From Monoplex corrugatus (lineage: Eukaryota > Mollusca > Gastropoda > Littorinimorpha > Ranellidae), in assembly GCA_030674185.1 (NCBI GenBank), contig CM060312.1, positions 237,669 through 301,668 of the forward strand: DNA of 64,000 nt, written 5' to 3'. Of this stretch, positions 635 through 64,000 are shown piece after piece. The notes beneath the pieces were generated by a model. That model saw nothing but the letters and a program-made list of their open reading frames with translations, was not told where the DNA came from and made no database searches. Positions within the stretch are counted from its first letter, which is position 1. The number at the start of each line of letters is the position of its first letter. Both the position numbers and the translations under genes were made by a program.

Positions 635-698
<64 letters not shown>

Positions 699-25804: not shown

Positions 25805-26580
<776 letters not shown>

Positions 26581-33618: not shown

Positions 33619-34391
33619 TAAGTAAGTAAGTAAGTATGGAGATTTTTATAGCGCTTTCTATGGACTCAAAGCGCTTCACAAATTTGAAAAGGAGGAGTAA
33701 AGTGGTGAAATGGGAGGGGAGAACACATTTTCAACAAAATACATAATACAAGAAATACACATAAACACATACATGCAGGCATGCACGCGTGTGCAGCAAC
33801 GAATGCAGACACACACACGCACACACAAACACACCCACACACAAACACCCACGCGCGCACCCACACGCACACACACCCACGCACACATACAATAGAACAA
33901 GAAAATTCAAGTTTCAAAAGTACTGGCGGAATAAGTGAGTTTTCAGGTTGGATTTAAAGGAAGAGAGAGAGGGGCTGTGGCGGAGAGAGTGAGGCAGGGA
34001 ATTCCACTCAACAGCAGCAGAGTATGAGAAGGAACGACCACCATGTTGCTTTCTATTGAATCCGGGGACACGGAATATTCTGTCGTCAGAAGCGGAACGT
34101 AAAGAACGAGAAGGAACATAGACTTGAAATAGATCAGATATATACGCTGGAGCAGTGCCTGAGATGACATGAAAAGAAATACAAGCAGATTTGTACTTAA
34201 TTCTTTGTTCGATCGGAAGCCAGTGGAGTTGTTTAAAGAGAGGTGTGCAATGGTGTGATTTGCGAGCTTTGAAAATTAATTTGGCTGCAGAGTTTTGAAC
34301 CTGTTGAAGGGGTTTGAGAAGAGTCTTGGGACAGCCGAGAAGTAAGGAGTTGCAATAATCTAATCTGGACAGAATACAAGCAGTTACAAGT
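33619..34391 (-). mobile_element. 5'-truncated L2-like LINE in the 30-bp satellite
   Basis: A minus-strand LINE 3' part. The tail on the plus strand begins (AAGT)n, then TTTATAGCGCTTTCTATGGA and AAGCGCTTCACAAAT (33619-33682). A CA/GT-rich 3' UTR follows (about 33760-33895), then the coding fragment. Satellite flanks both sides. The tail ends in a tetranucleotide repeat rather than the ATT repeat of the other LINEs, so it is a different subfamily. Confidence 0.8.
33914..34391 (-). pseudogene. L2-like reverse transcriptase C-terminal fragment
   Basis: An open minus-strand frame of about 159 codons without its own start, truncated by the satellite at 34391. Key blocks are LSRLDYCNSLLLG at the start, VQNSAAKLIFKARKSHHCTP, LHWLPIEQRIKYK, VYVPSRSLRSASDDRIFRVP, RSFSYSAAVEWNSLPHSLR and FKSNLKTHLFRQYF before TGA at 33914. 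This matches the thumb and C-terminal regions of the other LINEs in the window. The catalytic domain is absent, so the fragment is inert. Confidence 0.8.
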
Positions 34392-37300
34392 CCTATTTAT
34401 TCATTAAATGTCCTATTTATTCATTAAATGTCAAGTGTCTGTTATGCTATTTGTTATATATCATGTGTCCATTGTACTCTCTATTATATGTCAGTGTCTG
34501 TTGTCCTGTTTGTTATATGTCAAGTGTCTGTTGTCCTATTTATTATATATCACGTGTCTGTTGTCCTATTTCTTATATGTCAAGTTCTGTTGTCATATTT
34601 CTTCTATGTCAAGTGTCAGTTGTCCTATTTATTATATGTGAAGTGTCTGTTGTCCTGTTTATTATGTCATGTGTCTGTTGTCCTATTTCTTATAGTTCAA
34701 ATGTCTGTTGTCCCATTTATTATATGTCATGTGTCAGTGTCCTATTTATTATATGTCAAGTGACTGTTGTCCCATTTATTATAAGTCACTTGTCTGTTGT
34801 CGTATTTATTACATGTCAAATGTCTGTTGTCCTATTCGTTTATTAAATGCCACGTGTCTGTATTGCTATTTGTGATATGTCAAGTGTCCATTGTCATATT
34901 TGTTACATGTGAAGTGTCTGTTGTCAAATTTATCATATGTCAAGTGTCTGTTGTCCTATTTACTGTATATCCATTGCCTCTTGTCCTATTTGTTTTATGT
35001 CAATGGTCCATTGTCCTATTTCTTATGTGTAAAGTGTCTGTTGTCATATTTATTATAGGTCGTGTGTCTGTTGTCCTATTTGTTATATGTCAATGTCTGT
35101 TGTCCTATGTATTATATGTCAATGTCTGTTGTCCTATTCATTTGATGTCAAATGTCTGTTGTCCTATTTACTGTATCTAAACTGCCTGTATGTCAGGAGT
35201 CTGTTGTTCTATTTATCATATGTCATGTGTTTGTGTCCTATTCATGATAATTCAAGTGTCTGTTGTTCTATTTGGTATATTTCACGTGTCTGTTGTCCTA
35301 TTTGTAAAATGTCAAGTGTCTGTTCTCTTTATTTATCATATGTCAAGTGTCTGTTGTGCTATTTGTTATATGTCAAGTGTCTGTTGTCCTATTTATTATA
35401 TGTCAAGTGTCTGTTATCCTATTTATTATATGTCAAGTGTCTGTTGTCTTATTTCTTATATGTCCAGTGTCTGTTGTCCTATTTCTTATATGTCAATTGT
35501 CTGTTGTCCTATTTCTTATGTCAAGTGTCTGTTGTCCTATTTATTATATGTCAAGTGTCTGTTGTCCTATTTGTTATATGTCAAGTGTGTGTTGTCCTAA
35601 TTAGTGTATGTCAAGTGTCTGTTGTGCTGTTTATTGTGTCAAGTGTCTGGTGACCTATTTATTATATGTCAAGTGTCTGTTGTCTTAATTATTACATGTC
35701 AAATGTCTTTTGTCCTATTTATTCATTAAATGTCAAGTGTCTGTTGTGCTATTTGTTATGTCAAGTGTCCACTGTCCTATTTTATTTATGTCAAGTTTCT
35801 GTTGTCCTATTTATTATATGTAAAGTGTCTGTTGTCCTATTTATCATATGTCATGTGTCTGTTGTCCTATTTGTTATATGTAAAGTGTCTGTTGTCCTAT
35901 TTATTATATGTAAAGTGTCTGTTGCCTTATTTATTATATGTCATGTGTCTGTTGTCCTATTTGTTATATGTAAAGTGTCTGTTGTCCTATTTATTATATG
36001 TCATGTGTCTGTTGTCCTATTTGTTATATGTAAAGTGTCTGTTGTCCTATTTCTTATATGGCAAATGTCTGTTGTCCTATTTCTTATATGTAAAGTGTCT
36101 GTTGTCCTATTTATTATATGTCATGTGTCTGTTGTCCTATTTGTTATATGTAAAGTGTCTGTTGTCCTATTTTTTATGTGTCAAGTGTCTGTTTTCCTAG
36201 TTATAATATGTCATGTGTCTAATGTCCTATTTATTATATGTCACATGTCTGTCGACCTATTTATTATGTGTTAAGTGCCTGTTTTCCTATTTATAATATG
36301 TCAAGTGTCTGTTGTGCTGTTTATTGTGTCAAGTGTCTGTTGTAATATTATATGTCAAGTGTCTGTTGTCCTAATTATTACATGTCAAATGTCTGTTGTT
36401 CTATTTCTTATATGACAAGTGTCTGTTGTCTTATCTATTATATGCTACATGTCGGTTGTCCAATTTCTTATATGTAAAGTGTATGTTGTCATATTTTTAT
36501 ATTTCATATGTCTGTTGTCCTATTTGTAAACTGTTAAGTGTCTGTTCTCTGTATTTATTAAATGTCAAGTGCTGTTGTCCTATTTGTTATATGTCAAGTG
36601 TCTGTTGTCCTATTTGTTATATGTCAAGTGTCTGTTGTCCTATTTGTTATATGTGAAGTGTCTTTTGTCCTATTTGTTATAAGTGTCTTTTGTCCTATTT
36701 CTTGTATGTCAAGTGTCTGTTGTCCTATTTCTTATAAATGAAGTGTCTGTTGTCCTATTATTATATGTCGAGTGTCTGTTGTCCTATTTGTTATATGTCA
36801 AGTGTCTGTTGTCCTATTTGTAATATGTCAGAGTCGGTTCTCCTGTCTGTTGTGTCAAATGTCTGTTGTCCTATTTATCACATGTCAAATGTTTGCTGTC
36901 CTATTCATTTATTAAATGTCAAGTGTCTGTTTTCCTATTTATCATATGTCAAGTGTCTGTTGTCCTATTTATTATATGTCAAGTGTCTGTTGTCCTATTT
37001 ATCATATGTCAAGTGTCTGTTGTCCTATTTATTATATGTCAGGTGTCCGTTGTCCTATTTGTTATATGTCACGTGTCAGTTGTTCTATTTATTATATGTC
37101 ATGTGTATGTTGTCCTATTTGTTATATGTTAAGTGTTTGTTGTCGTATTTATCATACGTCAAGTAACTGTTGTCCTATCTATTATATGTCAAGTGTCTGT
37201 TGTCGTATTGATTATGTGTCAAATGTCTGTTGAACTATTTATTTATTAAATGTCAGGTATCTGTTGTGCTATTTGTTATATGTCAAGTGTCCACTGTCCT

Positions 37301-40300
37301 ATTTGATATATGTCAAGTGTCTCTTGTCCTATTAACTATATGTCAAGTGACTGTTGTCCTATTTCTTATATGTCAAGTGTCCACTGTCCTATTTGATATA
37401 TGTCAAGTGACTGTTGTCCTATTTCTTATATGTCAAGTGTCTGTTGTCCTATTTCTTATATGTGAGGTGTGTTGTTCTGTTTATTATATGTCAAGTGTCT
37501 GTTGTCCTATTTATTATATGTCAAGTGTTTGTTGTCCTATTCCTCATATGTCAAATGTCTGTTGTCCTATTTGTTATATGTCAAGTGTCTGTTGCCCTAT
37601 TATTATATGTCAAGAGTCTGTTGTCCTATTCCTCATATGTCAAATGTCTGTTGTCCTATTTATTATATGTCAAGTGTCTGTTGTCCTATTTGTTATATGT
37701 CGAATGTCTATTGTCCTATTTATTATATGTCAAGTGTCTGTTGTCCTATTATTATATGTCAATTGTCTGTTGTCCTATTTATTATATGTCAAGTGTCTGT
37801 TGTCCTATTTATTATATGGCAAGTATCTGTTGTCCTATTTGTTATATGTCATGTGTCTGTTGACCTATTTATTATATGTCATGTGACCGTTGTCCTATTT
37901 CTTACATTCATATGACTGTTGTCCTATTTATTATATGTCATGTGTCTGTTGTCCTATTTTTATATATGTCAATATATGTCTGTGTGTCCTATTTTTAATT
38001 AATATTGTCCTAATGTTGTCAGTGTCCTATTTATTATATGTCAATTGTCTGTTGTCCCATTTATTATTAGTTGTCCATTGTTGTCAGGTGTCCTTTTATT
38101 ATTATGTTTTATCATGTCTGTGTCCCTATTTATTATGTCAATGTCTGTTGTCCATTTTATTAAATGTCTTTTATTATATGTCTGTTGTGTCCTATTTGTT
38201 ATCTGTCATATGTCTGTTGTCCTATTTTTTCATTCAAATGTCTGTTGTCCTATTTATTGCATGTCAAGTGTCCTGTTGTCCTATATTTGTTATCTGTCAC
38301 ATGTCTGTTGTCCTATTTATTAATGTCAAGTGTCTGTTGTCCTATTTATTTAGTCAAGTGTCTGTTGTCCTATTTATTAATGTCAAATGTCTGTTGTCCT
38401 ATTTATTACATGTCAAATGCCTGTTGTCCTATTTATTACATGTCAAATGTCTGTTGTCCTATTTATTACATGTCAAATGTCTGTTGTCCTATTTATTATA
38501 TGTCAATGTGTCTGTTGTCCTATTTTATATTTGTCAAGTGTCTGTTGTCCTATTTATTATATGTCAAGTGTCTGTTGTCCTATTTATTATATGTCAAGTA
38601 TCTGTTGTCCTATTTTTATATGTCATGTGTCTGTTGACCTATTTATTATATGTCATGTGACCGTTGTCCTATTTCTATACATTCATATGTCTGTTGTCCT
38701 ATTTATTATATGTCATGTGTCTGTTGTCCTATTTATTATATGTCAATTGTCTGTTGTCCTATTTATTTATATGTCATGTGTCAGTGTCCTATTTATTATA
38801 TTGTCAATTGTCTGTTGTCCTATTTATTATATGTCATGTGTCAGTGTCCTATTTATTATTATCATGTGTCTGTTGTCCCATTTATTATATGTCATATGTC
38901 TGTTGTCCCATTTATTATATGTCAATGTCTGTTGTCCCTTATTTGTTTTACTGTCAATGTCTGTTGTCCTATTTGTTTTCTCAAATGTTCTGTTGTCCTA
39001 TTTATTGCATGTCAAATGTCTGTTGTCCTATTTATTATCTGTCACATGTCTGTTGTCCTATTTATTATGTCATTGTCTGTTGTCCTATTTATGTTACGTC
39101 AATGTCTGTTGTCCTATTTATTACATGTCAAATGTTTGTTGTCCTATTTATTACATGTCAAATGTCTGTTGTCCTATTTATTACTTGTCAAATGTCTGTT
39201 GTCCTATTTATTACATGTCAAATGCTGTTGTCCTATTTATTACATGTCAAATGCCTGTTGTCCTATTTATTACGTGTCAAATGTCTGTTGTCCTATTTAT
39301 TACATGTCAAATGTCTGTTGTCCTATTTATTAATGTCAATGTCTGTTGTCCTATTTATTATGTCAATGCCTGTTGTCCTATTTATTACTGTAAATGCCAT
39401 GTTGTCCTATTTTTTACATGTCAATTGTCTGTTGTCCTATTTTATACATGTCAAATGTCTGTTGTCCTATTTATTACATGTCAAATGTCTGTTGTCTATT
39501 CATTTATTAAATGTCGTGTCATGTATTGCGTTTTGTTATATGTCATGTGTCTGTTTTCTTATTTATCATATGTCATGTGTCTGTTGTCCTATTCATTATG
39601 TCACGTGTGTGTTGTCCTATTTGTTTATGTCAAGTATCTGTTGTTCTATATTTGTTATATGTCAAGTGTGTGTTGTCCTATTTGTTATATGCACGTGTGT
39701 TTTTTCTATTTGTTATATGTCACGTGTGTTGTTGTTCTATTTGTTATATGCCCCGTGTGTGTTGTTCTATTTGTTATATGTCACGTGTGTGTTGTCCTAT
39801 TTGTCATATGTCACGTGTGTGTTGTTCTATTTGTTATATGTCACGTGTTGTTGTCCTATTTGTTTTATGTTATATGTCTGTTGTTCTATTTGTTATATGT
39901 CATGTGTCTGTTGTTCTATTTGTTATATGTCATGTGTCTGTTGTTCTATTTGTTATATGTCAGTGTCTGTTGTTCTATTTGTTATATGACAAGTGTCTGT
40001 TGTTCTATTTGTTATATGTCATGTGTCTGTTGTTCTATTTGTTATATGTCATGTGTCTGTTGTTCTATTTGTTATATGTCAAGTGTTTGTTGTTCTATTT
40101 GTTATATGTCATGTGTACTGTTGTTCTATTTTTTATATGTTATGTGTCTGTTGTTCTATTTGTTATGTCACGTGTGTTGTCCTATTTGTTATATGTCATG
40201 TGTCTGTTGTTCTATTTGTTATATGTCATGTGTCTGTTGTTCTATTTGTTATATGTCATGTGTTTGTTGTTCTATTTGTTATATGTCATGTGTCTGTTGT

Positions 40301-43300
40301 TCTATTTGTGATATGTCATGTGTCTGTTGTCCTATTCATTATATCACGTGTCTGTTGTCCTATTTGTTATGTCACGTGTGTGTTGTCCTATTTGTTATGC
40401 CACGTGTGTGTTGTCCTATTTGTTATATGTCAAGTGTCTGTTGTCCTATTTGTTATATGTCAAGTGTCTGTTGTCCTATTTGTTATATGTCAAGTGTCTG
40501 TTGTCCTATTTGTTATATGTCACGTGTGTGTTGTTCTATTTGTTATATGTCACGTGTGTGTTGTTCTATTTGTTTTATGTCACGTGTGTGTTATCCTATT
40601 TGTTATATGCACGTGTGTGTTGTTCTATTTGTTATATGTCACGTGTGTGTTCTACTATTTGTTTTATGTCATGTGTCTGTTGTTCTATTTGTTATATGTC
40701 ATGTGTCTGTTGTTCTATTTGTTATATGTCAAGTGTCTGTTGTTCTATTTGTTATATTTCATGTGTACTTTTGTTCCATTTGTTATATGTTATGTGTCTG
40801 TTGTTCATTTGTTATATCAGTTGTTGTCTATTTGTTTATGTCAGTGTCTGTTTTCTATTTGTTATGCATTTGTGTCATTGTATTGTCATGTTGTTCCATT
40901 TGTTGTATGTCAGTGTCTGTTGTCTATGTATGTCAGTGTCTGTCTATTTGTTATATGTCAGTGTCTGTTGTCCTATTTGTTATGTATGCTGTGTCAGTAT
41001 GTCTGTGTCTGTTGTCCTATTTGTTATATGTCATGTGTCTGTTGTCCTATTTGTTATATGTCATGTGTCTGTTTTCTATTTGTTATATGTCATGTGTCTG
41101 TTGTCTATTTGTATATGTCATGTGTCTGTTGTTCTATTTGTTATATGTCATGTGTCTGTGTCTATTGTTATTGTCATGTGTCGTTGTCTATTGTTATATG
41201 TCACTGTCTGTTGTCCTATTTGTTATATGTCAATGTCTGTTGTTCTATTTGTTATATGTCATGTGTCTGTTGTTATTTGTTATATGTCAGTGTCTGTTTT
41301 CCTATTTGTTATATGTCATAGTGTCTGTTGTCCTATTTGTTATTCATGTGTTCTATTGTTAGTCTGTTGTTCTATTTGTTATATGTCATGTGTCTGTTGT
41401 TCTATTTGTTATATGTCACGTGTCTGTTGTCCTATTCATGTTATATGTCAGTGTCTGTTGTCTATTTGTTATATGTCCATGTGTGTTGTCCTATTTGTTA
41501 TATGTCAAGTGTCTGTTGTTCCTATTTGTTATATGTCAAAGTGTCTGTTGTCCTATTTGTTATATGTAAGTGCTGTGTCTATTTGTATGTCATGCTGTGT
41601 CCTATTTGTTATATGTCAAGTGTCTGTTGCTATTTGTTAGTCAGTGTTGTTGTCTATTTGTATAGTCAAGTGTCTGTTCTATTTGTTATATGTCACGTGT
41701 CTGTTGTCCTATTGTTATATGTCACGTGTCTGTTGTCCTATTTGTTTATGTCAGTGTCTGTTGTCCTATTTGTTATATGTCAAGTGTCTGTTGTCCTATT
41801 TGTTATATGTCAAGTGTCTGTTGTTCTATTTGTTATATGTCATGTGTCTGTTGTTCTATTTGTTATATGTCACGTGTCTGTTGTCCTATTCATTATGTCA
41901 CGTGTCTGTTGTCCTATTTGTTATGTCACGTGTGTGTTGTCCTATTTGTTATATGTCAAGTGTCTGTTGTCCTATTTGTTATATGTCAAGTGTCTGTTGT
42001 CCTATTTGTTATATGTCAAGTGTCTGTTGTCCTATTTGTTATATGTCATGTGTCTGTTGTCCTATTCATTATGTCACGTGTCTGTTGCCTATTTGTTACG
42101 TCACGTGTGTGTTGTCCTATTTGTTATATGTCAAGTGTCTGTTGTCCTATTTGTTATATGTCAAGTGTCTGTTGTCCTATTTGTTATATGTCAAGTGTCT
42201 GTTGTTCTATTTGTTATATGTCAAGTGTCTGTTGTTTCTATTTGTTATATGTCAAGTGTCTTTTGTTCTATTTGTTATATGTCATGTGTCTGTTGTTCTA
42301 TTTGTTATATGTCATGTGTCTGTTGTTCTATTTGTTATATGTCAAGTGTCTGTTGTTCTATTTGTTATATGTCATGTGTACTGTTCTTCCATTTGTTATA
42401 TGTTATGTGTCTGTTGTTCTATTTGTTATGTCACGTGTGTTGTCCTATTTGTTATATGTCATGTGTCTGTTGTTTTTATTTGTTATATGTCATGTGTCTG
42501 TTGTTCTATTTGTTATATGTCATGTGTTTGTTGTTCTATTTGTTATATGTCATGTGTCTGTTGTTCTATTTGTGATATGTCATGTGTCTGTTGTCCTATT
42601 CATTATATCACGTGTCTGTTGTCCTATTTGTTATGTCACGTGTGTGTTGTCCTATTTGTTATGCCACGTGTGTGTTGTCCTATTTGTTATATGTCAAGTG
42701 TCTGTTGTCCTATTTGTTATATGTCAAGTGTCTGTTGTCCTATTTGTTATATGTCAAGTGTCTGTTGTCCTATTTGTTATATGTCACGTGTGTGTTGTTC
42801 TATTTGTTATATGTCACGTGTGTGTTTGTTCTATTTGTTATATGTCACGTGTGTGTTATCCTATTTGTTATATGTCACGTGTGTGTTGTTCTATTTGTTA
42901 TATGTCACGTGTGTGTTCTCCTATTTGTTTTATGTCATGTGTCTGTTGTTCTATTTGTTATATGTCATGTGTCTGTTGTTCTATTTGTTATATGTCAAGT
43001 GTCTGTTGTTCTATTTGTTATATGTCAAGTGTCTGTTGTTCTATTTGTTATATGTCATGTGTCTGTTGTTCTATTTGTTATATGTCATGTGTCTGTTGTT
43101 CTATTTGTTATATGTCAAGTGTCTGTTGTTCTATTTGATATATGTCATGTGTACTGTTGTTCCATTGTTATATGTTATGTGTCTGTTTTTATTTGTTATG
43201 TCACGTGTGTTGTCCTATTTGTTATATGTCATGTGTCTGTTGTCCTATTTGTTATATGTCATGTGTCTGTTCCTATTTGTTATATGTCATGGTTGTTGTC

Positions 43301-46300
43301 CTATTTGTTATATGTCATGTGTCTGTTGTTCTATTTGTTATATGTCATGTGTCTGTTGTCCTATTTGTTATATGTCAAGTGTCTGTTTTCCTATTTGTTA
43401 TATGTCAAATGTCTGTTGTCCTATTTGTTATATGTCAAATGTCTGTTGTCCTATTTGTTACATGTCAAATGTCTGTTGTTCTATTTGTTATATGTCATGT
43501 GTCTGTTGTTCTATTTGTTATATGTCACGTGTCTGTTGTCCTATTCATTATGTCACGTGTCTGTTGTCCTATTTGTTATGTCACGTGTGTGTTGTCCTAT
43601 TTGTTATATGTCAAGTGTCTGTTGTCCTATTTGTTATATGTCAAGTGTCTGTTGTCCTATTTGTTATATGTAAGTGTCTGTTGTCCTATTTGTTATATGT
43701 GAAGTGTCTGTTGTCCCATTTGTTATATGTCAAGTGTCTGTTGTCCTATTTGTTATATGTCAAGTGTCTGTTGTTCTATTGTTATATGCAAGTGTCTTTT
43801 GTTCTATTTGTTATATGTCATGTGTCTGTTTGTCTATTTGTTATATGTCATGTGTCTGTTGTTCTATTTGTTATATGTCAAGTGTCTGTTGTTCTATTTG
43901 TTATATGTCATGTGCTGTTGTTCCTATTTGTTATATGTCATGTGTCTGTTGTTCCTATTTGTTATGTCACGTGTGTGTCCTATTGTTATGTCATGTGTTG
44001 TTTCTATTGTATATTCATGTGTTGTTGTTCTATTTGTTATATGTCATGTGTCTGTTGTTCTATTTGTTATATGTCATGTGTCTGTTGTCCTATTCATTAT
44101 GTCACGTGTGTGTTGTCCTATTTGTTATGTCATGTGTGTGTTGTCCTATTTGTTATGTCACGTGTATGTTGTCCTATTTGTTATATGTCAAGTGTCTGTT
44201 GTCCTATTTGTTATATGTCAAGTGTCTGTTGTCCTATTTGTTATATGTCAATTGTCTGTTGTCCTATTTGTTATATGTCAAGTGTCTGTTGTCCTATTTG
44301 TTATTGTCAAGTGTCTGTTGTCTATTTGTTTATGTCATGTGTCTGTTGTTCTATTTGTTATGTATTGTCTGTTGTTCTATTGTTATGTCTGTTGTTGTTA
44401 TTTGTTATATGTCATGTGTCTGTTGTTCTATTTGTTATATGTCAAGTGTCTGTTGTCCTAATGTTGTTCATGTTAGTCAGTGTCTGTTGTCCATTTGTTA
44501 TGTCATGTGTCTGTTGTCTATTTGTTAATGTCATGTGTCTGTTGTTCCTATTTGTTATATGTCATGTGTCTGTTGTCCTATTTGTTATGTGTCAGTGTCT
44601 GTTGTTCTATTTGTTATATGTCAATGTCTGTTGTTCTATTGTTATATGTCATGTGTCTGTTGTCCTATTTGTTATATGTCAGTGTCTGTTGTCCTATTTG
44701 TTATATGTCAGTGTCTGTTGTCCTATTTGTTATAGTCAAGTCTGTTGTCCTATTTGTTATATGTCAAGTGTCTGTTGTCTATTTGTTATATGTCATGTGT
44801 CTGTTGTCCTATTTGTTATATGTCAGTGTCTGTTGTCCTATTTGTTAATGTCAAGTGTCTGTTGTCCTATTGTTATTGTCAGTGTCTGTTGTCCTATTTG
44901 TTAATGTCAAGTGTCTGTTGTCCTATTTGTTATATGTCAGTGTCTGTTGTCTATTGTTATATGTCAAGTGTCTGTTGTCCTATTGTTATATGTCAGTGTC
45001 TGTTGTTCTATTTGTTATATGTCAGTGTCTGTTGTCCTATTTGTTATATGTCAAGTGTCTGTTGTCTATTTGTTATATGTCAGTGTCTGTTGTTCCTATT
45101 TGTTATATGTATGTGTCTGTTGTTCTATTTGTTATATGTTGACAGTGTCTGTTGTCTATTTGTTATATGTCAAGTGTCTGTTGTCCTATTTGTTATATGT
45201 CAAGTGTCTGTTGTTCTATTTGTTATATGTCAGTGTCTGTTGTTCTATTTGTTATATGTCATGTGTCTGTTGTTCTATTTGTTATATGTCATGTGTCTGT
45301 TGTTCTATTTGTTATATGTCAAGTGTCTGTTGTTCTATTTGTTATATGTCAGTGTCTGTTGTTCCATTTGTTATATGTCATGTGTCTGTTGTTCTATTTG
45401 TTATGTCATGTGTTGTTGTCCTATTTGTTAATGTCATGTGTCTGTTGTCCTATTGTTATGTCATGTGTCTGTTGTCCTATTTGTTATATGTCATGTGTCT
45501 GTTGTTCTATTTGTTATATGTCATGTGTCTGTTGTCCTATTGTTATAGTCAGTGTCTGTTGTCCTATTTGTATATGTCATGTTGTTGTCCTATTTGTTAT
45601 ATGTCCACGTGTTGTTGTTCTATTTGTTATATGTCAGTGTCTGTTGTCTATTTTTATATGTCCACGTGTTGTTGTCCTATTGTTATATGTCAGTGTTGTT
45701 GTCCTATTTGTTATATGTCAGTTGTCGTGTTGTTCCTATTTGTTATATGTCAAGTGTCTGTTGTCCTATTTGTTATATGTCAAGTGTCTGTTGTTCTATT
45801 TGTTATATGTCAAGTGTCTGTTGTTCTATTTGTTATATGTCAAGTGTCTGTTGTCTATTTGTTATATGTCATGTGTCTGTTGTTCTATGTTATATGTCAA
45901 GTGTCTGTTGTCCTATTTTATATGTCATGTGTCTGTTGTCCTATTTGTTATAGTCATGTGTCTGTTGTCTATTTGTTAATGTCAGTGTCTGTTTTCCTAT
46001 TTGTTATATGTCATGTGTCTGTTGTCTATTTGTTATATGTCATGTGCTGTTGTTCTATTTGTTATATGTCAGTGTCTGTTGTTCTATTTGTTATATGTCA
46101 AGTGTCTGTTGTTCTATTTTATATGTCATGTGTCTGTTGTTCCTATTTGTTATATGTCATGTGTCTGTTGTTCTTATTTGTTTAGTGTCATGATGTCTGT
46201 TGTTCCTATTTGTTATATGTCAAGTGTCTGTTGTCCTATTTGTTATATGTCAAATGTGTCTGTTGTTCTATTTGTTATATGTCAGTGTCTGTTGTTCTAT

Positions 46301-49300
46301 TTGTTATATGTCAGTGTCTGTTGTCCTATTTTTTATATGTCAGTGTCTGTTGTCCTATTTGTTATATGTCATGTGTCTGTTGTTCTATTTGTTATATGTC
46401 ATGTGTCTGTTGTCCTATTTGTTTATATGTCAGTGTCTGTTGTTCTATTTGTTATATGTCATGTGTCTGTTGTTCTATTTTTTATATGTCAAGTGTCTGT
46501 TTTCCTATTTGTTATATGTCAGTGTCTGTTGTCTATTTGTTATATGTCAAGTGTCTGTTGTCTATTTGTTAATGTCAATGTTCTGTTGTTCTATTTGTTA
46601 TATGTCATGTGTCTGTTGTTCTATTTGTTATATGTCACGTGTCTGTTGTCCTATTTGTTATATGTCATGTGTCTGTTGTTCTATTTGTTATATGTCAGTG
46701 TCCCGTTGTCCTATTTGTTATATGTCAAGTGTCTGTTGTCCTATTTGTTATATGTCATGTGTCTGTTGTTCTATTTGTTATATGTCAGTGTCTGTTGTCC
46801 TATTTGTTATATGTCAAGTGTCTGTTGTCCTATTTGTTATATGTCAAGTGTCTGTTGTTCCTATTTGTTATATGTCAAGTGTCTGTTGTTCTATTTGTTA
46901 TATGTCAAGTGTCTTTGTTTCTATTTGTTATATGTCATGTGTTCTGTTGTTCTATTTGTTATATGTCATGTGTCTGTTGTTCTATTTGTTATATGTCAAG
47001 TGTCTGTTGTTCTATTTGTTATATGTCATGTGTCTTGTTGTGTCCTATTTGTTATATGTCATGTGTCTGTTGTTCTATTTGTTATATGTCAAGTGTTGTT
47101 GTCCTATTTGTTATATGTCATGTGTCTGTTGTTCTATTTGTTATATGTCATGTGTCTGTTGTTCTATTTGTTATATGTCATGTGTCTGTTGTTCTATTTG
47201 TTATATGTCATGTGTCTGTTGTCCTATTTGTTATGTCACGTGTTGTTGTCCTATTTTTTTATGTCATGTGTGTGTTGTCTATTTGTTATATGTCAAGTGT
47301 TGTTGTCCTATTTGTTATATGTCAAGTGTCTGTTGTCCTATTTGTTATATGTCATTGATGTCTGTTGTTCTATTTGTTATATGTCAATGTGTCTGTTGTT
47401 CCTATTTGTTATATGTCAGTGTCTGTTGTCCTATTTGTTATATGTCATGGTCTGTTGTCTATTTGTTTATGTCATGTGTCTGTTGTTCTATTTGTTATAT
47501 GTCATGTGTCTGTTGTTCTATTTGTTATATGTCAGTGTCTGTTGTCTATTTGTTATTGTCATGTGTCTGTTTTCTATTTGTTATATGTCAAGTGTCTGTT
47601 GTCCTATTTGTTATATGTCATGTGTCTGTTGTCCTATTTGTTATATGTCATGTGTCTGTTGTCCTATTTGTTTATGTCATGTGTCTGTTGTCCTATTTGT
47701 TATATGTCATGTGTCTGTTGTCCTATTTGTTATATGTCATGTGTCTGTTGTCTATTGTTATATGTCAGTGTCTGTTGTCTATTTGTTATAGTTCGTGTCT
47801 GTTGTTCTATTTTTTATATGTCATGTGTCTGTTGTCCTATTTGTTATATGTCAGTGTCTGTTGTTCTATTTGTTATATGTCAATGTCTGTTGTCCTATTT
47901 GTTATATGTCAAATGTCTGTTGTTCCTATTTGTTATATGTCATGTGTCTGTTGTTCTATTTGTTATATGTCATGTGTCTGTTGTTCTATTTGTTATATGT
48001 CAGTGTCTGTTGTCCTATTTGTTATTATGTCAGTGTCTGTGTTTCCTATTTGTTATATGTCACGTGTCTGTTGTCCTATTTGTTATATGTCAAATGTCTG
48101 TTGTCCTATTTGTTATATGTCAAGTGTCTGTTGTCTATTTGTTATATGTCAAGTGTCTGTTTTTCTATTTGTTATATGTCATGTGTCTGTTGTTCCTATT
48201 GTTATATGTCACTGTGTCTGTTGTTCCTATTTGTTATATGTCAATGTGTCTGTTGTTCTATTTGTTATATGTCAGTGTGTTGTCCTATGTTATTCATGTC
48301 TGTCCTATTTGTTATGTCACGTGTGTGTTGTTCTATTTGTTATATGTCATGTGTCTGTTGTCTATTTGTTATGTCATGTGTCTGTTGTCTATTTGTTATG
48401 TCACGTGTGTGTTGTTCTATTTGTTATATGTATAGTGTCTGTTTTCTATTTGTTATATGTCATTGTGTCTGTTGTTCTATTTGTTATATGTCATGTGTCT
48501 GTTGTCGTATTTGTTATGTCACGTGTTGTTGTTCTATTTGTTATATGTCACGTGTCTTTGTTCTATTTGTTTATGTCATGTGTCTGTTGTTCTATTTGTT
48601 ATATGTCATGTGTATTTGTCATTTGTTATGTCATGTTGTTGTTCTATTTGTTATATGTCATTTGTTGTTCTTGTATATGTATGTCTGTTGTCTATTTGTT
48701 ATGTCACTGTGTGTTGTCCTATTTGTTATATGTCAGTGTCTGTTGTTCTATTTGTTATATGTCAAGTGTGTCTATTTGTTATCATTGTTGTTTTTGTTAT
48801 GTCAGTGTCTGTTGTTCTATTTGTTATATGTCAAGTGTCTGTTGTCTATTTGTTAATATCGTCAGATGTCGTCTGTTGTTCTATTTGTTATATGTCATGT
48901 GTCTGTTGTTCTATTTGTTATGTCACGTGTGTGTTGTCCTATTTGTTATATGTCAAGTGTCTGTTGTTCTATTTGTTATATGTCAAGTGTCTGTTGTTCT
49001 ATTTGTTATATGTCAAGTGTCTGTTGTTCTATTTGTTTTATGTCGTGTGTCTGTTGTTCTATTTGTTATATGTCATGTGTCTGTTGTTCTGTTTGTTATA
49101 TGTCAATTGTCTGTTGTTCTATTTATTATATGTTATGTGTCTGTTGTTCTATTTGTTATGTCACGTGTGTGTTGTTCTATTTGTTATATGTCAATTGTCT
49201 GTTGTTCTATTTGTTATTTGTCATATGACTGTTGTCCTATTTATTATATGTCATGTGTCTGTTGTCCTATTTATTATATGTCACGTGTGTGTTGTCCTAT

Positions 49301-50404
49301 TTGTTATATGTCATGTGTCTGTTGTCCTATTCATTATATGTCACGTGTCTGTTGTCCTATTTGTTATATGTCAAGTGTCTGTTGTCCTATTCATTATATG
49401 TCACGTGTGTGTTGTCCTATTTGTTATATGTCAAGTGTCTGTTGTTCTATTTGTTATATGTCATGTGTCTGTTGTTCTATTTGTTATATGTCATGTGTCT
49501 GTTGTTATGTTTGTTATCTGTCAAGTGTCTGTTGTTCTATTTGTTATATGTCAAGTGTCTGTTGTTCTATTTGTTATATGTCATGTGTCTGTTGTTCTAT
49601 TTGTTATATGTCATGTGTCTGTTGTTCTGTTTGTTATCTGTCAAGTGTCTGTTGTTCTATTTGTTATATGTCATGTGTCTGTTGTTCTTTTTGTTATATG
49701 TCATGTGTCTGTTGTTCTTTTTGTTATATGTCATGTGTCTGTTGTTCTTTTTGTTATATGTCATGTGTCTGTTGTTCTTTTTGTTATATATTATGTATTT
49801 CTTGTCATGTTTGTTACATGTCAGGTATTTGTCGTATTTCTGACGTGTCAGGCGCTTATTGTCCTGTTAGTTATCTGTCATTTATCTGTTGTCCTGTTTT
49901 TTATATTTCATATGTCTGTTGTCTTATTTGTTATCTGTCACATGTCTGTTGTCCTATTTATTATGTCACATGTCTGTTGTCCTATTTATTATGCCATATG
50001 TCTGTTGTCCTATTCATTCTGTGTCAAGTGGCTGTTGTCCTATTTGTTATCTCTCATATCATGTTTTCCTGTTTGTTACATTTCATGTGTCTCTTGTTCT
50101 GTTTGTTATATTCATGAATTTGTTGTCTCAGTTGCTATATGTCAAGTGTCTGTTGTCCTATTTGTTACAGTTTATGTGTTTGCTGTCCTACTTGTGATAT
50201 TTCATGTGTATGTTGTCTTATTTGTTATATGTCAAGTGTCTGTTGTCCTATTTGTTGTATATTATATGTCTGTTGTCCTATTATATTTCATGTGCCTGTT
50301 GTCCTATTTGTTTTATTTCATATGCCTGTTGTCACAGTTGTTATATTTCATGTGTTTTTTGTCTGTCTTACTACATTTCATGTGTCTGTTGTCCAAATGC
50401 CTGT
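34392..50404. repeat. 30-bp satellite, segment 2 (16 kb)
   Basis: More than 500 tandem units of the same 30-bp family. Variant classes occur in patches, for example TCAAGTGTCTGTTG, TCATGTGTCTGTTG, TCACGTGTGTGTTG and TAAAGTGTCTGTTG (35815-36160). A long-range internal duplication with an offset of 2264 bp joins about 40110-40730 to 42370-42990. Stretches around 37960-38170, 40800-41690 and 43960-48860 contain many units with one to a few bases missing. Towards 49790-50400 units diverge strongly. The long plus-strand ORFs, up to 1305 codons at 46200-50117, follow from the three-base-compatible period and are not supported as genes. Confidence 0.95.
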
Positions 50405-51498: not shown

Positions 51499-51936
51499 TT
51501 AGCAGAGGTGCGTGCTGGAGAGAGCCAACACCAGGGGGTCAGATCTCAAGGCCGTCACGTGATCACGCAGATCCTCCAGTTTGATACGTAGGCCACGTTC
51601 AGGCAGCAGGCAGCCCCTCAGGATGGCGGACAGTGTGCTGCCCACGTGATCGCAGGCGTCCATACCCAGCATGGAAGACGGGTGCACCTTGGTTCGGAAC
51701 TGCTCCAGACTGAGGGTGGTACGGAAGTCACGGTAGGGTTTGTCGTGGAGACAGGTCTCCCACACGATCAACCCGAAGCTGTAGTAGTCGTCTTCGGCCG
51801 TGTACAGCTCGTCCCTGAGCACTTCAGGCGACAGACACACGAAGGGCTCGGCAATGATCAGATGGGCGTCAGGCGGGAAGCGTGGTTTGCGTGGTAAGCA
51901 AGCTCCACACAGCCGGGGGTCTCCCTCTGCGTCCAC
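51499..51936 (-). CDS. Pseudokinase gene, last coding exon (kinase C-lobe)
   Basis: Encodes 145 residues and a TAA stop (51499-51501). The acceptor is TTGCAG ending at 51937, and the phase-0 exon start GTGGAC continues the previous exon's LDTIM. The sequence VDAEGDPRLCGACLPRK aligns with kinase strands 7-8 and the DFG motif, where DFG reads LCG. CLSPEVL corresponds to the APE motif. DDYYSFGLIVWE is the conserved helix-F block (DVYSFG in active kinases). GCLLPERGLRIKLEDL resembles the C-lobe arginine region, and the chain ends LALSSTHLC. Loss of the metal-binding Asp predicts no phosphotransfer. I do not recognise the gene family, so no symbol is given. The exon lies just beyond a satellite and is separated from the previous exon by about 7 kb of repeats. 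Confidence 0.85.
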   Translation of the reverse strand: MDAEGDPRLCGACLPRKPRFPPDAHLIIAEPFVCLSPEVLRDELYTAEDDYYSFGLIVWETCLHDKPYRDFRTTLSLEQFRTKVHPSSMLGMDACDHVGSTLSAILRGCLLPERGLRIKLEDLRDHVTALRSDPLVLALSSTHLC

Positions 51937-58640: not shown

Positions 58641-58732
58641 CATCATGTGAGCTAGGCCCTCCCAGTGCCCTAAGTTCAATCCCTTTAACGCACCTTCCCT
58701 TTTCACCCCCCCCCCCCCACACACACACTTAC
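58641..58732 (-). other. Intron piece downstream of the duplicated half-exon
   Basis: Contains a C-rich run and ACACACAC directly next to the donor of the half-exon copy. I see nothing further in it. Confidence 0.5.
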
Positions 58733-58807
58733 CATGATAGTGTCCAGGGACAGTTCCATAAGAACCAGACCCTCGTTGTGTAGGTACATGATGTCCCTCA
58801 ACACACC
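58733..58807 (-). other. Duplicated 75-bp half-exon with 5' splice site
   Basis: A second copy of the end of the adjacent kinase exon, reading GVLRDIMYLHNEGLVLMELS then LDTIM. It ends in ATG followed by GTAAGT, a better consensus donor than the full exon's GTAATG. It has the same 25 codons and phase as the full exon end, with five amino-acid changes: G5D, I7M, K11N, H15L and one more conservative position to be checked. The His of the HRD-equivalent is Leu here. A GT tract and TATGAAGGGGGAG precede it, ending in AG, so it could act as a short phase-0 exon. It could equally be an unused duplicate. Confidence 0.75.
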
Positions 58808-58816
58808 CTCCCCCTT

Positions 58817-58866
<50 letters not shown>

Positions 58867-58888
58867 CACGCACACACACACACATTAC
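58808..58888 (-). repeat. CA/GT microsatellite in the intron beside the donor
   Basis: (CA)n on the plus strand from about 58820 to 58884, directly beside the donor GTAATG of the full exon. Confidence 0.9.
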
Positions 58889-59117
58889 CATGATAGTGTC
58901 CAGGGACAGTTCCATATGAACCAGACCCTCTTTGTGCAGGTAAATGATGCCCCTCAACACACCCTCCAGCAGACGAGGCACACTCTCACTGGGTTTATGG
59001 AATCCTTTAGACAGGAAGCGCCGTGCAGGCCTCAGGTCGCCCATAAACAGGAAGACAGGGGACTCTTGAAGACGACTCATACCCAGGAAGCGCGCCAGGT
59101 CGTCAGAACGTAGACAC
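58889..59117 (-). CDS. Pseudokinase gene, internal exon (kinase hinge to catalytic loop)
   Basis: A 229-nt exon between acceptor GCGACAG (ending at 59118) and donor ATG-GTAATG (58887-58888). One leading base completes a codon with the previous exon; 76 codons follow and end in phase 0. The protein starts CLRSDDLARFLGMSRLQESP, resembling the strand 4-5 region of a kinase N-lobe. VFLFMGDLRPARRFLSKG is the hinge and helix-D region. LLEGVLRGIIYLHKEGLVHM then ELSLDTIM is helix E and the catalytic loop. The loop motif HRDLxxxN reads HMELSLDT: the catalytic Asp is Glu, the Lys is Ser and the Asn is Thr, so catalysis is unlikely. The 3' end joins in frame with VDAEGDPRLCG at 51936. Confidence 0.85.
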
Positions 59118-59261
59118 CTGTCGCACACATAGCACATACATTTTATGAATCATACACATTTCATGTGATTCACACACACTTCACATGAGTCACACAGTTG
59201 ATATGAACCATATCCATTTCACATGAGTCAGTAAGTCTGGAAAAGTACTGTACTGGGCAGT
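59118..59261 (-). other. Intron sequence with short ~30-bp repeats
   Basis: Contains loosely repeated ATGTGATTCACACA, ATGAGTCACACA and ATGAGTCAG blocks. No coding signal is visible. Confidence 0.5.
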
Positions 59262-59301
59262 CTTATGTCTAGATATGTATAATTACCTCAGTCTAGTGAT
59301 C

Positions 59302-59763
59302 GATTAACATCAGGAAGAGAGTTCTTGAATGTTATATAGAACCAATATTGTTGTACGGTTGTGAGGCGTGGACAGTCAAGAAGCAAAGCCAGAACAAGAT
59401 TGAGGCAGCCAAGATGTGGTTTCTAAGAAGGATGCTGAGAGTTCCATGGACAGCAAAGAAAACAAACGAGACAGTCTTCATGGAAGCAGACACAAGTACA
59501 CCATTCATACGGAAGATTAGGAAAAGGCAGGCAATATTCACAGGCCATTTTATGAGGAAAGGGGAATTGGAACACCTGGTCACAACAGGAAAGCTGGAGG
59601 GAAGGAGAGCACCGGGAAGACCTAGGGAGAAGATACTAGACGGACATGCAGAGTGGCTGAAGACAAGGAGGGTGGAAGAGATGCTTGAGGCAACAAGAGA
59701 TAGAGACAGGTGGAAGTCCATAACCGCCAACGCCATGTGGCAAGGCACCTGATGATGATGATG
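59302..59763 (+). mobile_element. RTE-like LINE 3' fragment with target-site duplication
   Basis: Flanked by the direct repeat AGTGATC (59295-59301 and 59764-59770). It corresponds to the C-terminal end of the element at 27490-30507 and finishes with a GATGATGATGATG tail. It is inserted in one unit of the 98-bp minisatellite. Confidence 0.85.
59348..59752 (+). CDS. RTE C-terminal domain fragment (open, 134 codons)
   Basis: An open frame reading MLYGCEAWTVKKQSQNKIEA, AAKMWFLRRMLRVPWTAKKT, FIRKIRKRQAIFTGHFMRKG, LEGRRAPGRPREKILDGH and MLEATRDRDRWKSITANAMW to a stop at 59750-59752. This is the conserved domain after the polymerase in RTE elements, probably used in nucleic-acid binding (family inference). 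The endonuclease and polymerase are absent, so it is inert. It is better preserved than the same region of the 27-kb copy, which has stops near 30090. Confidence 0.8.
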   Translation: MLYGCEAWTVKKQSQNKIEAAKMWFLRRMLRVPWTAKKTNETVFMEADTSTPFIRKIRKRQAIFTGHFMRKGELEHLVTTGKLEGRRAPGRPREKILDGHAEWLKTRRVEEMLEATRDRDRWKSITANAMWQGT

Positions 59764-60424
59764 AGTGATCTCTCTCAGCAATGTATTCGGGTACGCCATG
59801 CACGTAGACCTGTACTAACATATGTCTAGATAATTACCTCAGTCTAACAATCTCTCTAGTCAACGCGTGTTCAGGTAAAGCCATTACGTAGATCTCTACT
59901 GACCTAAGGTGTTATCTATACTGTATGTATGGTGTAATTACCCGAGTCTAGTGATCTGTCTAATCAAGGCGTGTTCAGGTAAGCCCTGTATGTAGGTCTG
60001 TAGTGACCCAGTATGTCTGGGTATGTTGATGTAATTACCTTAGTCTGGCAATCTCTTAATCAAGGGTGTTCAGGTAGCCTTGTATGTAGGTCTGTAGTGA
60101 CCCAAGTTATGTCTGGGTATGTATGATGTAATTACCTTAGTCTGGCAATCTCTCTAATCAAGGCGTGTTCAGGTAAGCCTTGTATGTTGATCTGTACTGA
60201 CCTACGTTATGTCTAGGTATATATGATGTAATTTCCTGAGTCTAGTCAAGGCGTATTCAGGTAAACCCTGTACGTAGGTATGTACTGAACCAAGTTATGT
60301 CTAGGCACATGTATGTATGATGTAAAAAAAACTTAGTCTGGCGATCTCTCTAATCAAGGTGTGTTCAGGTAAGCCCTGTATGTAGGTCTTTACTGACCCA
60401 AGTTATGTCTAGGTATGCTTAATG

Positions 60425-60775
60425 TAGGCAGCTGAGATGTGGTTTCTAAGAAGGATGTTGAGAGTTCCATGGACAGCAAAGAAAACAAACGAGACAGTCT
60501 TCATGGAGGCAGACACAAGTAGATCATTCATTAAGGAAGATTAGGAAAAGGCAGGCAACATTCATAGGCCATTTTATGAGGAAAGTGGAATTGGAACACC
60601 TGGTCACAACAGGAAAGCTGGAGGGAAGGAGAGCACCCAGGGAGAAGATACTAGACGGACTTGCAGAGTGGCTGAAGACAGGGAGGGTGGAAGAGATGCT
60701 TGAGGCAACAAGAGACAGAGTACAGGTGGAAGTCCATAATCGCTAACGCCATGCGGCAAGGCACCTGATGATGAT
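60425..60775 (+). mobile_element. Second RTE 3' fragment in the same minisatellite
   Basis: Starts at GGCAGCTGAGATGTGGTTTC and ends GCACCTGATGATGATG. It is truncated further than the copy at 59302-59763 and carries frame changes near 60530 and 60720, where an extra base lies in GAGTACAGG. The clean ATGTA at both edges may be a short target-site duplication. Confidence 0.8.
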
Positions 60776-60790
60776 GCATGATGTAATTAC

Positions 60791-61020
60791 CTGAGTCTGG
60801 CGATCTCTTTAATCAAGGCGTGTTCAGGTAAGTCCTGTATGTAGGTCTTTCCTATCACGTCCCTCTTCTGAGCGCCGATGGCCACGTGACCTTTGTTGCA
60901 GTTGTTCCACAGACTGCATCCTGCCCCCACCATCCCTGCCCCACTGGAAGACCGCCTGGACTGTCCTCTCATAGACACACCAAGGCCTGAGCCCATTATA
61001 TCCCTCTTCTTCACGCTCAC
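60791..61020 (-). CDS. Pseudokinase gene, exon for the kinase N-lobe
   Basis: A 230-nt exon from acceptor TTTGCAG (ending at 61021) to donor CTCAG-GTAATT (60789-60790). It is read in phase 0 at its start and ends with two bases of an Arg codon that the next exon completes. The protein runs VSVKKRDIMGSGLGVSMRG, a Ser/Gly-rich linker RRSSSGAGMVGAG, then CSLWNNCNKGHVAIGAQKRD and IQDLPEHALIKEIARLR. GHVAIGAQK resembles the VAIK strand with Gly in place of the ATP-binding Lys. LIKEIARLR fits helix C with its Glu. The first 40 residues probably precede the kinase domain. Earlier exons lie beyond this point, in or past the minisatellite to the right. Confidence 0.8.
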
Positions 61021-61024
61021 CTGC

Positions 61025-62735
61025 AAACAGCATAGTCATCACCATCACCTGACAAAGCCTGACAACTCACAGTCATCATGTATACCTGACAACACTTGAC
61101 GACACCTGAGAACACCTAACTACCACTGACAACCCTAGCAACACCTGACAACTCACAGTCATCATGTATACCTGACAGAACTTGACAACACCCGACGACA
61201 CCTAACGACACCTGACAATACCTGACAACTCACAGCCATCATGCATACCTGACAACATTTGACTACACCTGACAACTCATAGTCACCATGTATACCTGAC
61301 AACACTTGACGACACCTGAGAACACCTAACTAACATTGACAACCCCTAGCAACACCTGACAACTCACAGTCATCATGTATACCTGACAGAACTTGACAAC
61401 ACCCGACGACACCTAATCACACCTGACAATACCTGACAACTCACAGCCATCATGCACACCTGACAACATTTGACTACACCTGACAACTCATAGTCACCAT
61501 GTATATCTGACAACACTTGACGACACCTGAAAACACCTGACAACCACTGACAACCCTCGCTACACCTAACAACCCCTGGCAACACCTGACAACAGACAAT
61601 CATCATGTATACTAGACAACTACCTAACAACACCTGACAATACCTGACAAAACCTGACAAAACCTGACAATACCTGACAATACTGATACACACTGGCAAC
61701 ACTGACAATACATGACAATACCTGACAATACCTGACAACACCTGACAATACATTACAATACATGACAATACCTGACAACACTTGACAACACACAGTCATC
61801 ATGTATTCCTCAAAGCACCTGACAACACACAGTCATCATGTATTCCTAAAAAACACCTGACAACACACAGTCATCATGTATTCCTAAAAACACCTGACTA
61901 CACAGTCATCATGTATTCCTAAAAACACCTGACTACACACAGTCATCATGTATTCCTAAAAACACCTGACAACACACAGTCATCATGTATTCCTAAAAAC
62001 ACCTGACTACACACAGTCATCATGTATTCCTAAAAACACCTGATACACACAGTCATCATGTATTCCTAAAAACACCTGACTACACACAGTCATCATGTAT
62101 TCCTAAAAACACCGACAACCACAGTCATCATGTATTCCTAAAAACACCTGACTACACACAGTCATCATGTATTCCTAAAAACACCTGACTACACACAGTC
62201 ATCATGTATTCCTAAAAACACCTGACTACACACAGTCATCATGTATTCCTAAAAACACCTGACAACACCAGTCATCATGTATTCCTAAAAATACCTGACT
62301 ACACACTGTCATCATGTATACTGACAACACTGACAATACACAATCCTATGTGTAAATGACACGATCTGACAACACCTGACATCAGACAATCATCATGTGT
62401 ACCTGACAACACCTGACAGCACCTGACAACACTTGGCAACACGCAGTCATTATGTATACCTAAAGACACCTGGCAACACACAATCATCATATATACCTGA
62501 CAACACATAACAACACTGATAACACCTGACAACATACAGTAATCATGTATACATGACATCACATGACAACACCTGACAACACACAATCATCATGCATACC
62601 TGACAACACCTGACAACGCACAATCATCATGTATATTTGGCAATATCTGACAACACGCAATCATCATGTATACCTGACAACACCTGACAATACACAATCA
62701 TCATGTATACCTGAGAACACCTAACAATATATGAG
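61025..62735. repeat. 37-bp minisatellite (CAGTCATCATGTAT family), left block
   Basis: Units with the core ACACAGTCATCATGTATTCC plus TAAAAACACCTGACTAC, and the variant CAATCATCATGTATACC plus ACCTGACAAC repeats. The middle (61790-62300) is very regular at 37 bp. At 61060-61500 a larger repeat of about 230 bp is visible: the run from AACTCACAGTCATCATGTAT to AACTCATAGTCACCATGTAT occurs twice. Confidence 0.9.
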
Positions 62736-63562
62736 AAACCAGAAGAACAAGAAAACCAGAAGAACAAGAAAACCAATGTAAGCGCGTCTCCAACAAGACA
62801 AAACAAAACAAGCGCAAATTTTCGGCCAACTAGCCTTTGTCAAGCGCGAACGCACGGTCACAGACAAATCACAGACACCAAACAATGGATAATAAAAACG
62901 GGACTAAAAACTTCCCTGCCGCCTCGTCCAGTGGGTAAGAGATGGAATGCCCATGTCATCATGAGCAGTAGTAAGAAAAGGGGAGAGGGGAGGCAACTGT
63001 GATGTCAAAAGGGAAGTGAGATGAGTTCTGCAATTTTGAGAAGTGGCCATGCCATATCGGTATAGCCCCGTTCTGAAGAAGGCACAGGGCAAGAGCCAAG
63101 AGATAAGGGAGTAGATTGTGCCCGGTGCCAAGAATCTGGTAGGCGTGGGAACAGGAAGAGACATGAAATGGCATGTCTGAATTTTGTTACTCATGGTTTG
63201 TCGTTAAGACCATGTGGTTTGCGTGTTCCAAGTTTATTTATGAGGTGGGATTCTCTGTCTTTCCTGTCTATGGTGCTGTTATTGTGTAGAAGCCACAGAC
63301 CTTTCACTCGGATGTCATTGATTGAGTGGTCTGATTGGTTGAAGTGATTGGGGATAGTTTTATCCCTTTGGTGGCGGATATCAGCCAAGTGTTCTTTGAA
63401 ACGTGTGTCAAGGGTGCGTCCAGTTTCACCAATATACAATTGGGAACATTTAGAGCAGCTGATCAAGTAGACAATGTTATAAGTTTGACAGTTGAAATGT
63501 TTTGTAATTCTCATATGAGATTTGGGGCCTTTGACTGTGGTGGCTGAGCACAAGAAAGGACA
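62736..63562 (-). mobile_element. Penelope-like retroelement 3' fragment
   Basis: A minus-strand insert in the 37-bp minisatellite. It encodes a GIY-YIG endonuclease end (63191-63562) followed by a 3' UTR of about 450 bp (down to about 62740) that ends in repeated CCAGAAGAACAAGAAAA units. The reverse transcriptase part is missing (5' truncation). Confidence 0.8.
63191..63562 (-). pseudogene. Penelope-like GIY-YIG endonuclease fragment
   Basis: The fragment reads SHMRITKHFNCQTYNIVYLI, then SCSKCSQLYIGETGRTLDTR, FKEHLADIRHQ and NHFNQSDHSINDIRVKGLWL, ending in RESHLINKLGTRKPHGLND before a stop at 63191. IVY and LYIGETGR correspond to the GIY and YIG motifs, with the catalytic Arg in RTLDTR and Glu in RESHLI. 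This domain sits at the C-terminus of Penelope-like elements and nicks target DNA. The nearest Met (63574) lies in satellite sequence, so no native start is present. The domain looks intact but the polymerase is missing. Confidence 0.82.
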
Positions 63563-64000
63563 ATACACAATCACTATGAGAAGACATAATCATCATGTAT
63601 CTGACAACACCTGACAACACAAATCATTATGTATACCTGACAATACCTGACAAAACCTGACAACACACAATCATCATGCCTAAATGGCAACACCTGACAA
63701 CACCTGACAACAAACAATCATCAGGTATACCTGACAACACCTGACAACACCTGACAACACACAATCATCAGGTATACTGACAACACATGACAACACACAA
63801 TCATCATGTATACCTGACAACACCTGACAACACCTGACAACACACGATAATCATGTATACCTGACAACACCTGTCAACACAAGATCATCATGTACACCTG
63901 ACATCACCTGACAACACACAATCACCATGTATACCTGGCAACACTTGAAAACCCACAATCATCATGTATACCTGACAATACCTCACAACACCTCACAATA
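63563..64000. repeat. 37-bp minisatellite, right block
   Basis: Continuation of the array at 61025-62735 with ACACAATCATCATGTATACC plus ACCTGACAACACCTGAC units, running off the end of the window. Confidence 0.9.

Follow-up and report, generated by a model that had tools for sequence, protein, structure and literature searches.

The Host Gene and Its Splice Boundary

The host gene lies on the minus strand of the window, by which we mean the whole stretch of 64,000 nucleotides of Monoplex corrugatus DNA that was analyzed (C8:237669-301668). Three of its exons were located in the window.

60791-61020, minus strand: exon A, identified by its open frame, its in-frame join to exon B, its Pkinase match together with exons B and C, and its presence in a second gene copy
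60791-60846, minus strand: copied tail of exon A (its last 56 bases, unit U0), with the donor GT at 60790-60789
58889-59117, minus strand: exon B, with donor GTAATG in the window and GTAAGT in the second copy
51505-51936, minus strand: exon C, the rest of the kinase-like domain, in the same gene as exons A and B

The translation of exon A ends in ...EIARLR, with AG|GTAATTAC at the exon/intron border. Splicing of A to B is in phase 2 and preserves the frame, reading EIARLR-CLRSDDLARFLGMS. Exons A, B, and C together matched the Pkinase profile (Pfam PF00069) at 55.3 bits, above the cut-off of 31.7, and exons A and B alone scored 23.2 bits, below that cut-off; against solved kinases, A and B gave weak matches (best E 0.0014). 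Deleting the repeated tail of exon A lowered the Pkinase score from 53.9 to 47.3, a loss of 6.6 bits. Because A and B join in frame, the three exons together match the Pkinase profile, and exon A ends at the same place in the second gene copy, the boundary at 60790, on which the original prediction depended, is judged on sequence evidence to be a real splice site. For the 5' end, the acceptor at 61020/61021 was taken as the first AG past a close upstream in-frame stop; later AGs are also possible, so this end is placed with less confidence than the 3' end.

Active kinases carry the VAIK lysine, HRD, and DFG motifs. The corresponding sites here, read by eye, are HVAIGAQK, LVHMELSLDTIM, and RLCGACL, so the motif set of an active kinase was not found. 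Because the usual catalytic motifs are altered, the gene product is, by motif, a putative pseudokinase. Six homologous proteins were found, five over exon C and one over exon B; searches with exon A of the window and of the second copy found no homologue of this exon outside its own genome. With repeats masked, 20 kb past the window shared no extra segment, as a further upstream exon might, with the 10.7 kb upstream of exon A in the second copy.

Structure of the Array in the A-B Intron

The intron between exons A and B (59118-60790) consists chiefly of a repeat array and LINE sequence. Seven units (U1-U7, 59245-60387, minus strand) follow exon A head to tail, where the original prediction had called for at least six; together with the exon itself they provide eight boundaries. 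The units and LINE fragments are given below, with their counterparts (P2-P4) in the second gene copy (L010).

60280-60387, minus strand: U1, donor GT lost (AAG|TTTTTT)
60192-60279, minus strand: U2, 12 bases missing from the exon part, donor GT lost (CAG|GAAATT)
60092-60191, minus strand: U3, intact donor at 60135 (AAG|GTAATT)
59998-60091, minus strand: U4, intact donor at 60038, exon part with three deletions of one base each
59894-59997, minus strand: U5, intact donor at 59941 (CGG|GTAATT), counterpart P2 with 1 difference in 103
59810-59893, minus strand: U6, intact donor at 59837, counterpart P3 with 1 difference in 84
59245-59809, minus strand: U7, split by LINE fragment 1, intact donor at 59286, counterpart P4 with 5 differences in 95, far end arbitrary
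~59303-59767, plus strand: LINE 3' fragment 1, inside U7, ends approximate, flanked by repeated GATCACT, missing from the second copy
~60425-60772, plus strand: LINE 3' fragment 2, inserted within the intron portion of U0, approximate ends, missing from the second copy, where L010 has a LINE-free site

Units are 84-108 bases long and comprise up to 56 exon-like bases, the donor position, and 28-52 intron-like bases (58 by that count in the LINE-split U7). When exon A was compared with the window by blastn, five of the seven units appeared among the best 40 of 54 matches, with E values from 1e-23 to 4e-11; U2 and U7 fell outside the best 40 and were placed by eye and by alignment. These matches are far above chance and bear out the central claim that the end of an exon, with its donor, has grown into a minisatellite at this place: each tandem unit spans a copy of the 3' end of exon A and its donor position. 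Of the span first assigned to the array (59262-60424), about 59303-59767 is the 3' end of a LINE and not a unit, as is the adjoining 60425-60772.

Alignment of the units to the exon, proposed at the outset as a check on frame and GT, showed that the donor GT was kept in five of the seven units (U3-U7), each of which retained GTAATT, and lost in U1 and U2, the two closest to exon A. Exact copies of GTAATTAC occurred four times in the window (exon A, U3, U4, and U5), so that the expectation of this boundary in each of six units held for three units and the exon and was too strong for the rest. Similarly, the final 18-20 codons had been expected in every unit; U1, U3, U5, and U6 keep all 18 codons of the tail open, but the tail is damaged in U2, which lacks 12 bases, in U4, which has three single-base deletions, and in U7, which is diverged and split by the LINE. 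An AG precedes the exon-like part in 6/7 window units and in 4/4 units of the second copy, and AGGT was found at array boundaries.

Coding selection on the units was considered and rejected. Relative to the exon, U1, U2, U3, U5, and U6 carry 7 silent and 21 amino-acid-changing codons (U4 and U7 were omitted because of indels), with no silent excess over random substitutions in the tail, which would yield 34 silent, 118 changing, and 10 stop outcomes. Codon positions 1, 2, and 3 account for 8, 5, and 6 of the variable columns in the same five units.

The two LINE fragments are 92% identical over 365 bases, and a longer copy of this LINE lies at about 27.5-30.5 kb of the window. Because the second copy has a LINE-free site and GATCACT is repeated on both sides, fragment 1 is regarded as an insertion.

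A Second Copy of the Gene

A search of the 3.02 Gb genome, in which the best candidates only were scored and copy counts are therefore lower bounds, detected at least one further full copy of exon A (C8:1149677-1149933, other strand) and at least two places in total for exon C. The second gene copy, L010, carries exons A, B, and C with the same exon A boundary and lies 0.85 Mb from the first, in the opposite orientation, on one 99.5 Mb contig. Between the two copies, the protein encoded by exon B is identical and that of exon C is 98% identical; dS is 0.036 for exon B, 0.029 for exon C, and 0.10 for exon A. We compared the window up to position 50000 with 90 kb around L010 (10 kb of which reads N) for the extent of the gene duplication; we attribute the 18 matches obtained to the tail of exon B and to interspersed repeats.

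We also observed that exon A (60791-61020 against L010:687-922) differs at 18/228 bases, compared with 9/657 in exons B and C (Fisher 6.7e-6). Exon A sits between two arrays.

The A-B intron of L010 is short, with four units (P1-P4), all of which keep GT, and neither LINE. P2, P3, and P4 pair one-to-one with U5, U6, and U7, at 1-5% difference, indicating that the distal part of the array predates the gene duplication. Unit number thus varies between two gene copies of one genome, seven in the window against four in L010, and the difference lies on the exon side only (U1-U4 against P1). In a tree of the units, U3 and U4 grouped with P1 (0.79), and U1 and U2 were not firmly placed (support 0.28 and 0.73-0.76). 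The exon tail of L010 (P0) and its first unit differ at 2 of 100 bases, with no difference in the 44 bases of the intron part.

An assembly artefact, for example an allele placed as a second locus or a collapsed repeat, would make a gene copy or some of the array spurious and might be suspected from the closeness of the units to the exon and the position of the gene amid long tandem repeats. The two copies, however, have different surroundings, LINE insertions, unit numbers, and exon A sequences, and their distance and opposite orientation within one long contig also argue against an artefact, which we consider improbable.

Direction of Copying and Turnover of the Array

Since the repeated tail is part of the kinase match, it follows that exon A seeded the minisatellite and not the reverse. 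The opposite course, in which the tail of the exon was recruited from an older minisatellite, could draw on the near identity of the L010 tail to its first unit (98% over 100 bases), but the tail falls within the stretch matched to the Pkinase profile and adds to its score, and we regard such exonization as very improbable. As for the exon as seed, the L010 tail has G and R where the window exon has D and K, and most units also have G and R, from which we conclude that the seed was the older exon sequence and that the window exon changed afterwards.

Divergence of the units from their own exon, in order of distance, was 0.02, 0.17, 0.23, and 0.27 in L010 and 0.11, 0.12, 0.11, 0.10, 0.18, 0.25, and 0.28 in the window. 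One-sided permutations gave 1/24 for L010 and 200/5040 for the window, the two not being mutually independent, and the trend in the window was weak (Spearman 0.72, two-sided p 0.07). Over U0-U6, the exon-like part was less divergent than the intron-like part (0.141 vs 0.234, permutation p 0.017; 0.199 vs 0.247 with U7 included). A purely neutral array does not alone predict this difference; conversion from the exon or uncertain gapped alignment of the intron part could explain it.

These patterns lead us to infer turnover at the exon side of the array. The exon may have given rise to new units or converted the first one, or L010 may have lost units like U1 and U2. U1 and U2 may be old units lost from L010 instead of units gained in the window, because their placement in the tree is not firm and they differ from the exon by 11-12%, more than the gene copies differ from each other. 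Likewise, the 2% difference between P0 and P1 may reflect conversion instead of a fresh duplication.

Predicted Effects on Splicing

Donors and acceptors were scored with a splice frequency matrix. With this matrix, the real donor (U0) scored 4.56, the highest of 98 GTs in the scored stretch of the window, and those of U3 and U4 scored 4.39. In L010 the real donor and the first decoy tied at 4.56 and are identical from -3 to +6; since their intron parts are identical as well, site strength cannot select the real donor there. A ladder of potential donors, as first proposed, therefore fits the sequence, with GT in 5/7 units. The potential mini-exons of that proposal fit formally, with an AG ahead of the exon-like part in 6/7 units.

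In all 11 modeled transcripts using a decoy donor (two of them, U1 and U2, without GT), a TAA followed immediately after the split codon. Mini-exons with the unit's own ends were modeled for 10 units, U7 being left out, and nine of the ten transcripts stopped within 11 codons; the exception, P4, with 54 bases, remained open. Because nearly all modeled decoy and mini-exon transcripts stop, we read the array as a source of tolerated, leaky splice noise. The most likely picture is that the exon-proximal donor is used, with some leakage to non-productive mRNA, as in human ABCA7.

Alternatively, the array could be a working switch, in which protein amount is tuned by poison splicing at decoy donors and AG-bounded mini-exons, with unit number setting the level. 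GT kept in 5/7 window and 4/4 L010 units and AG retained ahead of 6/7 and 4/4 exon-like parts are consistent with such a role, but GT is lost in exactly the two window units nearest the exon, and at 1-5% divergence the distal donors would be expected to stay unchanged in any case. The acceptors of P1 and P2 in L010 scored close to that of the real exon B (-0.40 against -0.32, all weak), that of P4 scored -1.13, and P3 was outside the best ten listed; moreover, the LINEs supply better-scoring acceptors on the sense strand. Folding of six sites, in which pairing of TTACCTG with CAGGTAA in the exon tail might mask donors in a hairpin, gave a mixed result: among the window sites, U3 and U4 were closed and the real donor showed partial opening (GT unpaired 0.38 and 0.27), as a switch would favor, but in L010 the real donor P0 was no more open than P1 or P2. 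Repeat length is reported to alter exon skipping in human ABCA7 (PMC5954066), which favors a switch; the unequal unit number of the two gene copies speaks against one. On balance, a switch appears unlikely.

We prefer an account in which a minisatellite was seeded by exon A at its boundary, turns over on the exon side, and is tolerated as leaky splice noise, and consider it probable as a whole. A tandem duplication over the border of exon A and its intron would have taken in the final 56 coding bases, the donor, and a small part of the intron. Duplication and loss would then have recurred at the exon-proximal edge, with the exon, selected for its kinase-like domain, as a lasting template, so that growth would proceed from the exon side and the oldest copies would end up deepest in the intron and decay there. 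The two LINEs would have inserted later, in one gene copy. Most splicing probably starts from the authentic donor next to the exon, and the array would be removed as part of the intron. When a decoy donor or a unit mini-exon is occasionally used, a premature stop and, with decay of the aberrant mRNA, little or no protein would result. The array may be neutral.

L010 offers a natural test of donor choice. Its two donors lie 100 bases apart, are identical from -3 to +6, and belong to units that are 98% identical; in the models, the kinase-like protein results from one of them and a stop codon from the other.

The LINE fragments, read on the gene strand (59593-59656 and 60617-60671, minus strand), contain acceptors that outscore all others in the intron (5.5 to 6.6). 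A LINE acceptor and the donor of U7 could delimit a cryptic exon.

Duplication of the Exon B End

The original prediction also held that the neighboring exon shows the same kind of duplication and that the process happened at least twice in this gene. Both statements agree with our results: each gene copy carries, behind a GT run, a duplicate of the last ~80 bases of exon B with its donor. Two such duplicates lie in the window.

58729-58811, minus strand: local duplicate of the exon B 3' end, 94% identical, donor GTAAGT, behind a (GT)n run
25718-25808, plus strand: orphan inverted copy of the exon B 3' end with GTAAGT, in a (GT)n tract 33 kb off

In the window, the end of the local duplicate lies 156 bases past the end of exon B (58733-58889, minus strand), in frame and open through the GT run (Cys-Val), and in L010 the 120-base extension to the duplicate contains stops. 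The native donor of exon B in the window, GTAATG, scored 1.19, and the GTAAGT of the duplicate and of the native L010 site scored 6.46. The orphan copy has 83 bases identical to exon B yet carries the upstream junction of the local duplicate, TATGAAGGGGGAGGG. Apart from the exon B and local duplicate of L010 itself, no such copy was seen in the 90 kb fetched around it (10 kb of which is N). We infer that copying of the exon B tail was mediated by the GT tract.

A bolder and rather doubtful reading is that an exon/intron junction under coding selection serves as a lasting seed that repeatedly buds splice-competent copies, making the intron a time-ordered fossil bed. Seeding would have occurred at the donors of exons A and B, and perhaps at the acceptor of A, and one bud would have been exported over 33 kb via a GT microsatellite. 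If this is true, the ladder would lower splicing fidelity to a degree that depends on copy number.

Comparison with Known Repeats

The minisatellite of human IFI6 (6-16, G1P3) has a unit of 12 bases, shorter than those described here. By the title of Turri et al. 1995, it contains multiple splice donors and thus resembles the present array in supplying several. The 31-bp VNTR of human CBS, c.1444_1467+7(16_21), varies between 16 and 21 copies (PMC2630376); read from its name, its unit consists of the last 24 bases of an exon and the first 7 of the intron, a tandem repeat of an exon end and donor as found here. The present array differs in its unit of 84-108 bases with 56 exon bases, its four or seven copies, its interruption by LINEs, and its gene. 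In intron 18 of human ABCA7, a VNTR of 12 to about 427 intronic units of 25 bases starts at the donor, so that every unit has a donor, as here (PMC5954066). According to the same source, the donor of the next unit is used and shifts the frame, and retention of one unit accounts for ~2% of transcripts, a reading that depends on the order of a list. The effect on splicing was measured in ABCA7, whereas for the present array it is predicted.

Other systems share single features. The human CBS 844_845ins68 duplication spans an intron-exon junction, and its effect on the protein is removed by splice-site choice, as proposed here; it is, however, a single duplication of 68 bases at the opposite end of the intron, and one of its two sites is known to be preferred (PMC2630376). 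In tandem-repeat genes such as UBC, dual-specific AGGT sites, which serve as both donor and acceptor, place AG|GT once in each unit and the spliceosome chooses among equivalent sites, a repetition of AG|GT also seen here; the UBC units are coding and in frame (PMC10809524), whereas those of the present array are intronic and nearly all of their modeled uses lead to stops. Internal tandem repeats at the exon-intron boundaries of duplicated human genes vary in number between duplicates, as in the two copies described here, and can form new introns (PMC2812944), whereas no new intron is shown here.

The kind of repeat is thus already known from CBS, ABCA7, and IFI6, and our results extend it from human genes to the genome of Monoplex corrugatus. 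What is new is that two gene copies sharing one origin can be compared, which allows changes in the array to be located, namely to the exon side. Among the titles and abstract openings searched, no report on this array was found, which is no proof of its absence from print.

Other Minisatellites in the Window

Long minisatellites occupy much of the window (1-12633, 17566-25366, and 31768-50394), including 18.6 kb of a 30-base unit. Upstream of exon A (61011-64000, minus strand; L010:1-696), the units of another minisatellite end like TGATGACTGTATGTTGTCAG|GTG, similar to the exon A acceptor (TGATGACTGTATGCTGTTTGCAG|GTG in L010). The score of this likeness was reached by 0, 1, and 5 of 200 shuffles in three comparisons.
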